DNA from: Gammaproteobacteria bacterium | Lineage (GTDB): Bacteria > Pseudomonadota > Gammaproteobacteria > SZUA-229 | Direction of reading: 5' to 3' | Assembly (NCBI GenBank): GCA_030641945.1 | Contig: DAOWLL010000032.1 | Span: 1-10,094 of the forward strand | DNA: 10,094 nucleotides | Shown: in pieces, positions 2,845-9,995 of the stretch | How the letters are laid out: every line of letters starts with the position of its first letter | Position numbering within the stretch: the first letter of the stretch is position 1 | Notes under the pieces: generated by a model | The model's input: only the letters and a program-made list of their open reading frames with translations | Told to the model about the DNA's origin: nothing | Database searches by the model: none | Program-made: the position numbers and the translations under genes

Positions 2845-3052
2845 TTTTACCGCAGAGGCGCGGAGACGCAGAGGTAATTCAAATATTGTGGTTGGCGATT
2901 CCGCCTCAGTAGGCCGGGATAAGGCTTTGCCGTTCCCGGCATGTTATGGAATTGCCAGTAATGCATAACTTATGCAGGCACACGTAACTAGATCAAACCA
3001 GTCCACACATAAAAAAAGTTTTTCTCTGCGCCTCAGCGTCTCTGCGGTTTAA
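2845..3052. repeat. MITE-like unit with inverted CGCAGAG-type ends
   Basis: The left end (2845-2876) contains ACCGCAGAG followed by variants of the 8-nt unit CGCAGAGG. The right end (3021-3052) is its reverse complement with about four to five mismatches in some 28 bases. Together they bound a 208-bp non-coding unit. It lies in the 442-base gap (2810-3251) between the converging TMEM175-like and rluE genes and contains a REP-like palindrome. The CCGCAGAGACGCAGAGG type of sequence is a widespread dispersed repeat in environmental proteobacteria, as I recall it. There is no transposase, so movement, if any, would need help in trans. I see no target-site duplication. Confidence 0.65.
2913..2940. 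repeat. REP-like palindrome inside the MITE-like unit
   Basis: The perfect 7-bp arms GCCGGGA (2913-2919) and TCCCGGC (2934-2940) enclose an inner GGC-TTT-GCC hairpin (2923-2931). The GC-rich nested form, with CCGGG ends and an AAGGC/GCC core, resembles extragenic palindromes common in Gammaproteobacteria. The palindrome at 10037-10063 is built in the same way. Confidence 0.55.
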
Positions 3053-3984: not shown

Positions 3985-4899
3985 CTAAACCGGATGCAAA
4001 TTGAACCAGCGCTGCCGCCGTCCCGGTCCTGCATTCAGCTGATCAAACATCTTGTGCAAGGCATCTTCATCCACGCCGTGCCAGCGCAGGTCCTGCTTTG
4101 GGCCTTTGAATTCAGCATCAGTAACAATAGTGGTCAGCTGTTTTGTCATTGGCAGCATATGCTTATGCTCTTCTACCAGGCGTTGTATGCGTGCGGCACC
4201 CCTGAATTTCATTTCAGAAATTTTGTGAATATTTTCAAGAACATGCTCAACACCTGGATACTTTTTCAGCAGGTTTGATGCCATTTTATAGCCGACACCA
4301 GGAATGCCGGGAACATTGTCGACGGCGTCGCCTGACAAAGCCAGCAGGTCGGCAATGAGCTCGGGATGTACACCAAATTTTTTTTCAACATCGCGGTAAT
4401 GCAAAATTTTATCGCGTGCGAAGTCCCACCAGATGTCGCCGGGCCTGATTAATTGAGCAAGATCTTTGTCAGCGCTGATAATCGTGATTGCATAGCCATC
4501 ATCACGCAGTCGCGTCGCCAGGGTGCCAATGATGTCATCAGCTTCATAGCGGTTGCTTGAATAATCGGCGATACCCGCGGCGCGGCAAAAGTCGCGGCAG
4601 GGTTTAAACTGCCTTTTGAGTTCTTCGGGAGCAGGTGGGCGGTTTGCTTTATACTCTGGAAAAATTTCCCTGCGGTAGGAATTGGTTTGTTTTGCATCGA
4701 AAGCACAGGCAATATATTCGGGTTGTTCCAGCTGGATCAATTCATGCAGGAATTCGGTAAAACCGTAAACGGCATTCGACGGATTACCGTCGATATCAGT
4801 CATGTGCTCGGGATAGACATGCCAGCCCCTGAAGATATATATGCTGGAATCGACCAGATAGGCGCGTTTATTTGATTTATTATTTGCCATTGCGGGCAT
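3985..4899 (-). CDS. Stand-alone 5'-3' exonuclease / flap endonuclease (PolA exo-domain type)
   Basis: This 304-residue protein matches the 5'-nuclease domain of DNA polymerase I, with no polymerase domain. It should cut 5' flaps and degrade 5' ends during Okazaki fragment or repair processing. The metal-binding acids all appear present: D17 in YLVDSS, D68 in AFDAKQ followed by the arch SYRREIFPEYKANRP, then EADD (119-122), SADKD (D144, D146) and GDAVDN (D191, D194). The helix-hairpin-helix VPGIPGVGYKMASNLLKKY (196-214) binds DNA. E. coli Xni/ExoIX is shorter (251 residues) and lacks part of the acidic set, so this is not a typical Xni. Either ATG 4899 or ATG 4890 could be the start; neither has a clear ribosome binding site. 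It diverges from the PhoX-like gene. Confidence 0.9.
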   Translation of the reverse strand: MPAMANNKSNKRAYLVDSSIYIFRGWHVYPEHMTDIDGNPSNAVYGFTEFLHELIQLEQPEYIACAFDAKQTNSYRREIFPEYKANRPPAPEELKRQFKPCRDFCRAAGIADYSSNRYEADDIIGTLATRLRDDGYAITIISADKDLAQLIRPGDIWWDFARDKILHYRDVEKKFGVHPELIADLLALSGDAVDNVPGIPGVGYKMASNLLKKYPGVEHVLENIHKISEMKFRGAARIQRLVEEHKHMLPMTKQLTTIVTDAEFKGPKQDLRWHGVDEDALHKMFDQLNAGPGRRQRWFNLHPV

Positions 4900-4946
4900 T
4901 TTACGTGACGGCTTATGAAAGTAAATCCATGATTTTAGTCATGCGC

Positions 4947-4976
4947 CTGGCCGTGAGTGGCATTCACAACGGCCAG
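4947..4976. promoter_or_regulatory. Perfect 8-bp inverted repeat between divergent genes
   Basis: CTGGCCGT (4947-4954) and ACGGCCAG (4969-4976) are perfectly complementary around 14 nt. The inner GAGT/ATTC can also pair with one G-T wobble. It lies 47 nt from the exonuclease start and 43 nt before the PhoX-like start. A second, smaller inverted repeat, CATGA-N6-TCATG (4928-4943), lies beside it. It may be an operator shared by the two genes or a leader hairpin. I found no clear Pho box (tandem CTGTCAT) here. Confidence 0.4.
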
Positions 4977-5019
4977 CAGCATGGTGCTGGTATACCAGGT
5001 CTTTGATAATATTCGATAT

Positions 5020-6150
5020 ATGAACAGAAGAAATTTAATCAAGCTGGGACTTTATGGCGCAGGTGCTGTCTGGGCCAACCAGATTGTGGGCAGCAGCCGT
5101 GCTGCTCATGACCCTGTTCAGCTGTTACCGGCAGACCGTAACGGCGTACGCCTGCCAAAGGGGTTCAGCTCGCGCATCGTTGCCGAATCGTCCATTTCAC
5201 CCGTTGGCAGTTGTGAATATGTGTGGCATGCGGCACCCGATGGCGGTGCCTGTTTTGCAGATGAGGCTGGTGGCTGGATTTATGTGTCCAACAGTGAACA
5301 GGATGACAATGACGGTGGAGCAGGGGCGCTTCGATTCGACGCAGATGGCAAGCTGATCGATGCCTATTCCGTGCTGCAAGGCACCAGTCTAAACTGTTCC
5401 GGTGGCGCCACGCCCTGGGGTAGCTGGCTTTCCTGCGAGGAAATTGACAGCGGCAGGGTGTGGGAGTGCGACCCGCTGGGTGTCGAGGCTGCTGTGGTGA
5501 GGCCGGCACTGGGTGTGTTCAAGCACGAGGCGGTGGCCGTCGACTCGCTGAATAGAAAACTATACCTTACAGAAGATCAGGCCGATGGCTGCCTGTACCG
5601 TTTTACACCCTTCAATTATCCGGACCTTGCTACGGGCAAGCTTGAAGCCGCACGGGTTATTGACGGCGATACCGGCAAGCTTGAATGGCAGGAAATCAGG
5701 GACCCGTTGGCGAGGCGCACCGCGACCCGCTTTCAAACCAATGCCACTAAATTCAGAGGCGGTGAAGGTATTGCCTATTTCGGCGGCAAGGTCTATTTCA
5801 CGACCAAGGGTGATAATCGTGTCTGGGTGTTTGATATAAACAGCCAGGTTCTGAGTGTTCTTTATGATGACAGCGCCTACATTAATCCTGTGCTGAACGG
5901 TGTCGACAACATCACCGTCTCGTCTGACGGCTCACTCTATGTTGCCGAAGATGGTGGAAATATGCAGGTTGTGGTCATTACCAATGATGGAAATATTTAT
6001 CCGGTCGTCGAGCTGGTAGGGCATAATAATTCCGAAATTGCGGGTGTCGCATTCAGCCCGGATGGCAGCCGCCTGTATTTCAGTTCGCAACGTGGAAAAA
6101 GCGGTGATGACCTCGATGGCCTGACTTTTGAAATTCGTGGCCCATTCTAG
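5020..6150 (+). CDS. Tat-exported PhoX-like (DUF839) protein
   Basis: This 376-residue protein starts with a twin-arginine signal, MNRRNLIKLGLYGAGAVWA, so export of the folded protein to the periplasm is likely. The rest is a beta-propeller of the PhoX/DUF839 family, whose founder is an Fe/Ca alkaline phosphatase. Family signatures include NCSGGATPWGSWLSCEE (125-141), FKHEAVAVD (167-175), YLTEDQ (182-187), GEGIAYFGGKVYFTTKGDNR (248-267), VDNITVSSDGSLYVAEDGG (295-313) and AFSPDGSRLYFSSQRG (344-359). C126, E170, E186, E249 and E310 are plausible metal ligands by position. It is much shorter than founder PhoX proteins (around 650 residues), so phosphatase activity is possible but not shown. The ATG at 5020 is preferred because it places the RR motif at residues 3-4; no strong ribosome binding site is visible. 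Confidence 0.88.
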   Translation: MNRRNLIKLGLYGAGAVWANQIVGSSRAAHDPVQLLPADRNGVRLPKGFSSRIVAESSISPVGSCEYVWHAAPDGGACFADEAGGWIYVSNSEQDDNDGGAGALRFDADGKLIDAYSVLQGTSLNCSGGATPWGSWLSCEEIDSGRVWECDPLGVEAAVVRPALGVFKHEAVAVDSLNRKLYLTEDQADGCLYRFTPFNYPDLATGKLEAARVIDGDTGKLEWQEIRDPLARRTATRFQTNATKFRGGEGIAYFGGKVYFTTKGDNRVWVFDINSQVLSVLYDDSAYINPVLNGVDNITVSSDGSLYVAEDGGNMQVVVITNDGNIYPVVELVGHNNSEIAGVAFSPDGSRLYFSSQRGKSGDDLDGLTFEIRGPF

Positions 6151-8180: not shown

Positions 8181-9761
8181 TTGAGCGCAAAACTACGCAA
8201 TATCGCCATCATCGCCCACGTCGATCACGGCAAAACCACCCTGGTCGACCAGCTGCTGCGGCAGTCCGGCACGCTGGACAGCCGCAAGACGCCGACAGAA
8301 CGGGTGCTGGAGTCCAGCGACCTCGAAAAAGAGCGTGGCATCACCATCCTGTCGAAGAACACCGCCATTACCTGGGGCGATTACCATATCAACATCGTGG
8401 ATACGCCGGGCCATGCCGATTTCGGCGGCGAGGTCGAACGCGTACTGTCGATGGTCGATTCCGTGTTGCTGCTGGTGGATGCTGTCGATGGCCCTATGCC
8501 GCAAACCCGCTTTGTCACGCAGAAAGCCTTTGACATGGGTTTCAAGCCCATCGTGGTGATTAACAAGATTGACCGCGATGGCGCCCGTCCCCACTGGGTG
8601 CTGGACCAGACTTTTGACCTGTTTGACAACCTCAGTGCAACCGACGAGCAGCTCGATTTCCCGGTGGTCTATGCCTCAGCTATAAACGGCTATGCCTCTC
8701 TGGATTCGAGCGTGCGTGAAGGCGACATGAAGCCGTTGTTTGAAACTGTCGTTGAACAGGTGCCGGCACCGGACACCAACGATGAAGGTCCATTTCAGAT
8801 GCAGATCTCTACGCTGGATTACAACAGCTACGTGGGTGTTATTGGCATCGGCCGCATCAAGCGCGGCAAAGTATCATCGAATACGCAGGTAAAAATCATC
8901 GATCGTGAAGGCGCGGTCAGGTCCGGGCGTGTATTGCAGGTACTGGGTTTCCATGGCCTGGAGCGTGTCGAAAAAGCCGAGGGCGAGGCAGGCGATATCA
9001 TTGCGATTACCGGCATAGACCCGCTGGATATATCCGACACGCTGTGCGATCCGGACAAGGTCGAAGCGATGCCAGCGCTTTCAGTCGATGAACCCACCAT
9101 TAGTATGACCTTTCAGCCCAACACCTCACCGTTTTCAGGCAAGGATGGCAAGTATGTTACCAGTCGAAATATCTGGGATCGTCTGCAGCAGGAACTGAAA
9201 CATAATGTAGCGCTTCGGGTGGAGCAACTCGAAGGCGAGCGTTTCCGTGTTTCAGGCCGTGGCGAACTGCATCTTTCTGTATTGATCGAGAACATGCGCC
9301 GTGAAGGTTATGAGGTTGCGGTAGGCCGTCCGGAAGTGATTATCCACGAAGTTGATGGTGACAAGCAGGAGCCTTACGAGCAGCTCGCCGTTGACATCGA
9401 GGAGCAAAGCCAGGGTGCCGTGATGCAAGCGCTGGGTGAGCGCAAGGCAGAGCTGAAAAATATAGTGCCTGATGGCAAAGGCAGGGTAAGGCTTGACTAT
9501 ATTATTCCTGCGCGTGGTCTCATCGGTTTTCGCACAGATTTTCTAACAATGACATCGGGCACTGGCCTGCTCTACAGCGTGTTTGATCGCTATGGCCCAT
9601 ACCTTAATGTCAGCATTGGTCAACGCAATAATGGTGTATTGATTTCAAACGGACAGGGCAAGGCACTTGGCTATGCGCTGTTTAATTTGCAGGAACGCGG
9701 CAAGCTGATGTTGGGCCACGGTGAGGAAGTCTATGAAGGCATGGTTATTGGCATACATTAA
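8181..9761 (+). CDS. typA: TypA/BipA ribosome-associated GTPase, cut short by an in-frame TAA
   Basis: BipA/TypA is an EF-G-like GTPase that aids 50S ribosome assembly and stress or cold growth. The GTPase motifs are intact: G1 AHVDHGKTT (12-20), G2 RGIT (52-55), G3 DTPGH (74-78), G4 NKID (128-131), G5 SA (166-167). The EF-Tu-like domain 2 and the EF-G-like domains follow, with [12 protein letters not shown] and [20 protein letters not shown]. The TTG start at 8181 is supported by GGAG (8171-8174) at 6 nt spacing and by homology beginning at [10 protein letters not shown]. Translation meets TAA at 9759-9761 after GMVIGIH, giving 526 residues against about 607 in E. coli. The same frame continues cleanly to 9995. 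The lost part is the end of the C-terminal domain, including the segment known to reach the A-site tRNA, so the truncated form should bind the ribosome poorly. Confidence 0.95.
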
Positions 9762-9995
9762 CGCAACAATGACCTGGTAGTGAATCCGCTGAAGGCCAAG
9801 CAGCTGACCAATATTCGTGCTGCCGGAACTGACGAGAACATCATCCTGACACCGCCAATTCGTTTCTCCCTGGAGCAGGCGCTGGAGTTTATAGATGATG
9901 ATGAACTGGTCGAAGTGACCCCGAACGCAATTCGCGTGCGCAAGAAATTCCTCAAGGAGCATGAACGCAAACGCGCCTCACGCGAAGCAAGCTAG
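9762..9995 (+). pseudogene. typA: C-terminal 77 codons of typA beyond the TAA, same frame
   Basis: The codons after the TAA read [20 protein letters not shown], then [20 protein letters not shown] and [20 protein letters not shown], ending KRASREAS and TAG (9993-9995). This is the conserved BipA C-terminus in uninterrupted frame. E. coli has GIHSRSNDL at the join, so TAA replaces a serine codon, most simply TCA to TAA by one base. A GTG at 9780 could reinitiate but has no ribosome binding site. With the TAA read as serine the whole gene (8181-9995) would make 604 residues, the normal length. Confidence 0.92.

Follow-up and report, generated by a model that had tools for sequence, protein, structure and literature searches.

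The window, i.e. the whole stretch of 10,094 bases analysed here, is a complete contig (C5) of a draft genome composed of 634 contigs (2.71 Mb, estimated as 86% complete), and carries a typA/bipA gene on the plus strand, interrupted by an in-frame TAA codon. The following features were located:

8181..9758, plus strand: typA/bipA before the stop, with a TTG start (open reading frame and profile matches)
8190-8765, plus strand: GTPase domain of typA (profile)
8307..8318, plus strand: cluster of the unusual residues M43L, D44E and N46S within the GTPase domain (comparison with 103 distinct TypA proteins)
8835-9047, plus strand: domain 2 of typA (profile)
9366-9602, plus strand: EFG_C domain of typA (profile)
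9630-9758, plus strand: first 43 positions of the BipA_C domain (profile)
9759..9761, plus strand: in-frame TAA, in the place of residue 528 of 607 (sequence and PDB alignment; sense codons at 107 other loci)
9762..9992, plus strand: intact BipA C-terminus of 77 codons, corresponding to BipA_C positions 45-109 and followed by a stop at 9993-9995 (frame and profiles)
9783..9836, plus strand: equivalent of the C-terminal loop, N536-E553 (numbering by PDB alignment, limits from PMC8313970)

From the TTG at 8181, 526 codons can be read without a stop; the TAA follows the residues GIH and precedes RNNDL, and beyond it the same frame remains open for 77 codons, down to a normal stop. An earlier note on this DNA had described the TAA as lying in frame between two open flanks, with 77 BipA codons behind it, and this is borne out by both the frame and the profile matches. 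The matches of the two pieces adjoin, with a single residue absent between them, at positions 1-527 and 529-603 of 607 in PRK10218, and at positions 1-522 and 524-594 in TIGR01394. When the stop is read through by the search tool, the gene scores 924.5 bits over positions 1-594, against a family cut-off of 757.3, the first piece reaching 808.3 bits by itself. The frame does not run uninterrupted through the C-terminal domain, the TAA being located inside BipA_C, of which the two pieces cover the positions up to 43 and from 45 of 110; in the 607-residue BipA chains found in the PDB, it aligns with residue 528. The gene thus resembles the TypA/BipA translational GTPases (TIGR01394, PRK10218, PF21018) in that its pieces, separated by one residue, span the full length of the family, but differs from them by the stop at position 528 of 607 and by odd residues at positions 43, 44 and 46. 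The absence of any second lesion, also claimed previously, holds for stops and frameshifts within typA, but not for these three unusual residues, grouped at positions 43-46.

The public typA genes most similar to this one come from metagenome-assembled Gammaproteobacteria, and the draft is presumably of the same kind. According to a profile search, the split gene is the sole typA of this 86% complete genome: no intact second copy, which the earlier note had advised looking for, was found. Seven further, partial family matches score under the cut-off, and none of them contains a stop.

To compare the site, 109 typA loci were collected from relatives and public genomes, corresponding to 103 distinct proteins; 107 of them could be scored at the stop codon. 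A stop is found there in none of the 107 (duplicates included), which feature 84 serine, 17 alanine, 2 glutamine, 2 threonine, 1 valine and 1 proline codons. The statement that the family has serine at this place is therefore mostly right, leaving aside the 17 alanines and six other residues. A single-base change from TCA to TAA, proposed at the same time, is possible, one sister having TCA, but is not established by the comparison, as the nearest relative uses another serine codon. A typA above the family cut-off was found in 45 of 58 genomes searched, the window's own being the only one with a stop. Similarly, no typA stop was seen among the matches listed from 369 genomes of the class, the window's own gene not being among those listed. 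A search for the stop together with its flanks hit one of the seven genus genomes, the window's own, and none of the six others; this is a weak test, because the pattern also demands the residues which follow the stop in the window. Sisters thus carry sense codons and the stop is not conserved. The earlier note had regarded such sense codons as sufficient to make the TAA an error: this is a weak test as well, because the sisters share only 80–87% DNA identity with the window, and their codons cannot separate an error from a recent mutation.

Recombination or chimerism within typA was discarded, since comparison with the sisters in 150-base steps revealed no sharp break in identity. The typA of another genome in the genus, G002 (CP070838.1), was considered as an independent case of breakage and set aside as uninformative, being followed after residue 436 by a run of about 100 N, with the end of the gene absent from the 3,000 bases behind the run. 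This record (bin102, titled chromosome; L054 after 4308) may contain the N run as such, or owe it to masking.

The part of the gene located behind the stop was compared with the nearest sister genome, G004, which shares 87% DNA identity with the window. For the 77 codons dN is 0.023 and dS 0.51 (dN/dS about 0.05), the corresponding values before the stop being 0.041 and 0.58. Among four genus members, own residues in this C-terminal part number 0 in the window, 0 in G004, and 2 and 3 in the other two. Judging by these substitutions, the codons behind the TAA are under strong purifying selection; neither the relaxed selection nor the further lesions which would characterize a pseudogene were found. 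A very young pseudogene would, however, give the same picture. Selection and lack of own residues behind the stop together indicate that the TAA is either very young or absent from the cell. Were the 77 codons no longer in use, the age of the stop could be roughly estimated as about the last 6% of the branch, the branch being taken as half of the pairwise dS and only residues unique to this genome being counted.

The main new fact is that a second core gene, nrdB, coding for the beta subunit of ribonucleotide reductase, is split in the same draft. On the minus strand of contig C1 (L122), its frame is interrupted by a lone in-frame TAG at 6076-6078, and the two pieces match positions 23-256 and 258-383 of 383 in PRK07209; it is the single nrdB match of this genome in a profile search. 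All six other genus genomes contain a whole nrdB, with a tyrosine codon at the TAG site (TAC in five and TAT in one). Behind the TAG, comparison with G004 gives a dN of 0.011 and a dS of 0.38. The part lost after the TAG holds metal ligands. The argument that nrdB is indispensable, and its stop hence an error, was nonetheless dropped: a second ribonucleotide reductase large subunit is encoded on contig C510, and because of it a real nrdB stop is not impossible. No match to NRDD was found in this genome. What was found in nrdB is another conserved gene with a solitary interruption in the same assembly, as would be expected of consensus errors.

Split genes were searched for in the draft as in-frame stops flanked on both sides by coding-like sequence, candidates being judged by eye. 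The survey covered 81 contigs, namely C1 to C70, including the window's own, plus 11 others, 3 of which chosen for other GTPase hits. Thirty contigs consisted of N only; the 51 readable ones contained 304,830 bases, with 82,474 codons and 206 long ORFs. All of the 41 resulting candidates were viewed. A chance join of two frames is ruled out for typA, which ranked first of the 41; nrdB ranked second, and was the only further split gene recognised in the 51 readable contigs. The other high-ranking candidates appeared by eye to be sites where one gene ends and another begins, or non-coding frames. Profiles were used to check six pairs: nrdB was confirmed as one gene, one pair proved to be leuA plus a uracil-DNA glycosylase, and the remaining four, in which at least one piece was without a match, were judged by eye alone. 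Weaker splits may have been missed, because candidates were judged by eye and just six pairs by profile.

Applied to G004, where 40 readable loci provided 501,403 bases and 125,006 codons of long ORFs, this survey led to 76 candidates; no split gene was recognised by eye among the 45 listed, and the one pair checked by profile gave no match. The difference between two split genes in this genome and none in G004 is not significant (p about 0.16, by our own arithmetic). When genes of G004 were matched to this genome, 24 matches, totalling 8,404 codons, contained the typA stop, but no frameshift and no other internal stop; when genes from further loci of the relatives were used, the 23 matches (9,418 codons) contained the typA stop only. 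In the reverse control, with the genes of this genome matched to G004 DNA, two of the 24 matches, with identities of 73–75%, contained stops, which were attributed to a gapped stretch or to frames that do not code. An initial crude comparison of the two genomes, in which stops occurred in 23 of 44 pairs, was discarded, these stops, typA excepted, being read as wrong frames or as stretches preceding the start. No stops were found in 29 ABC-transporter domain hits of this genome. The few faults encountered in the gene matches and in the ABC-transporter check suggest that the fault rate is not high. If both stops came from random errors in single bases, such errors would number close to 2 per 10,000 bases, on the assumption that a stop results from about 4% of single-base changes.

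The earlier note had left three explanations open, a recent mutation, an error and readthrough, and these are indeed the ones to be weighed. On balance, we lean towards the second, broadened to include rare alleles: the TAA is probably a wrong consensus base, or a rare allele, in the draft, and not a working feature. The assembled consensus of a fragmented metagenome bin would carry a wrong base at this position, or the assembler would have taken a rare allele, and the population itself would keep an intact, single-copy typA; the TAA would then be one of the single-base consensus faults scattered in the draft. The finding of a lone nrdB stop in the same draft moves the weight towards error. 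Two core genes, each with a solitary stop, with different stop codons in place of different residues, both under selection on either flank, and both within one fragmented draft, point to consensus faults or rare alleles, which fit the two stops better than biology does. A similar situation has been described for the deposited genome of Mycobacterium smegmatis, where a significant proportion of interrupted genes corresponds to sequencing errors (PMC1852416). The two cases are alike in featuring solitary interruptions in conserved, selected genes, and in more than one core gene; they differ in that the present interruption is an isolated stop in a draft from a metagenome, and the error in it a proposed one. 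Literature searches on stop codons in metagenome-assembled genomes retrieved no paper containing every term sought, a broader one retrieving PMC1852416.

A real and very recent nonsense mutation is a serious, though less probable, alternative. It would leave a 526-residue TypA lacking the C-terminal loop and binding poorly to the ribosome, with typA undergoing loss in the strain or in a fraction of the population. According to the PDB alignment, the part lost after the TAA contains the whole of the loop, residues N536-E553. In PMC8313970, this loop is described as contacting the ribosome as well as the peptidyl transferase centre, is cited as required for ribosome binding, and its truncation is reported to have worsened the phenotypes of a bipA deletion in E. 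coli; the earlier expectation that loss of the C-terminal segment impairs ribosome binding agrees with this published account, the lost part containing the entire loop. PMC6962249 describes bipA as non-essential, hence dispensable, in normal growth, which is in favour of a tolerated mutation, but also BipA as required for normal growth in the cold, which is against it.

Loss of typA may have occurred in relatives as well. Out of 369 genomes of the class, 41 gave no match at E <= 1e-150; among the 313 with a completeness of 90% or more and a contamination of 5% or less, 24 gave none. Both counts may include genes cut by contig ends. Two members of the compared set, G005 and G006 (the latter 92% complete), lack a typA match over the family cut-off, as do several other relatives. 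In this group, typA may thus have been lost more than once.

The best argument for a changing TypA is the cluster at residues 43-46. M43L, D44E and N46S fall in columns otherwise kept in 102–103 of the 103 distinct TypA proteins, within switch I; with G152S and A268G, they bring to five the deviations at positions conserved in 97% or more of the homologues. Genus sisters feature 0–1 such deviations, and this TypA could already have been changing in the lineage, as expected under relaxed constraint. However, the median over all homologues is 1 but the maximum, reached among distant ones, is 13, and amino acid change before the stop is not raised overall, own changes numbering 14 here versus 7, 14 and 23 in three sisters. 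Relaxation of TypA, local recombination and an assembly fault are all possible causes of the cluster. The age allowed by the codons behind the stop is compatible with a mutation, provided this is very recent. A nonsense pseudogene of a dispensable gene would likewise show a lone stop, in a gene for which some related genomes give no strong match; unlike in such a pseudogene, no decay is seen behind the typA stop, and a second core gene is hit too. A real mutation in typA would leave the lone stop in nrdB, a gene kept whole by all sisters, still to be accounted for.

Readthrough or a changed code are poorly supported. It is very improbable that decoding of the TAA is frequent enough to yield full-length TypA, for instance by a UAR-reading suppressor tRNA which also reads the nrdB TAG. 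Conservation of the sequence behind the stop in both split genes would be accounted for in this way, and the C next to the TAA, a context pointed out by the earlier note, might favour it. The same C, however, follows 18 of the 83 TAA codons found at ORF ends. Of 205 long ORFs sampled, split genes included, 83 end in TAA, 41 in TAG and 81 in TGA; a changed genetic code was rejected on this basis, many ORFs ending in TAA and TAG. Backup stops follow 33 of the 83 TAA, 11 of the 41 TAG and 39 of the 81 TGA codons, and are no commoner after TAA or TAG than after TGA. The genes for release factors 1 and 2 (prfA and prfB) are both present and free of internal stops. Recoding of TAA had been judged unlikely from the start, and the ORF ends, among which is that of the first typA piece, and the intact release factor genes are in agreement. 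Conservation of the stop, to be expected for programmed readthrough or recoding, is absent in the relatives compared, and the RNA behind the stop is predicted to fold no better than shuffled sequences (z 0.26).

One ochre suppressor can read both TAA and TAG, by the wobble rule, and could therefore serve both typA and nrdB. A population with such a tRNA, reading UAA and UAG, would tolerate lone stops in core genes such as these two, both proteins being made at full length; we consider this still less probable than readthrough in general. No stop-reading anticodon occurs in the 17 tRNA genes found, an incomplete set, the full one being larger. No tRNA was detected by script in the 51 readable contigs, and none in the 37 of those searched with a dedicated tool, which yielded one tmRNA. 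Least probable of all is a TypA split into two proteins, with a 71-residue piece, restarted at the GTG at 9780, where a 71-codon ORF does begin, joining the 526-residue one: the cut falls within BipA_C, between positions 43 and 45 of 110, visual inspection of the bases separating the stop from the GTG reveals no Shine-Dalgarno-like stretch, and no compared relative is split there.

If, as we favour, the two stops are consensus errors or rare alleles, annotation of this draft would split typA and nrdB, and could suggest a gene loss which did not happen. If the typA stop is real, the gene would provide a natural TypA without C-terminal loop, at the onset of its loss; if suppressed, an instance of stop codons tolerated in a bacterium which otherwise uses them as ends.

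Elsewhere in the window, short stretches at about 2836-2889 and 3021-3048 recur behind typA in a sister genome (L038, about 4837-5003), and one of them is also found near typA at a further locus (L040). These recurring stretches look like an interspersed intergenic repeat.
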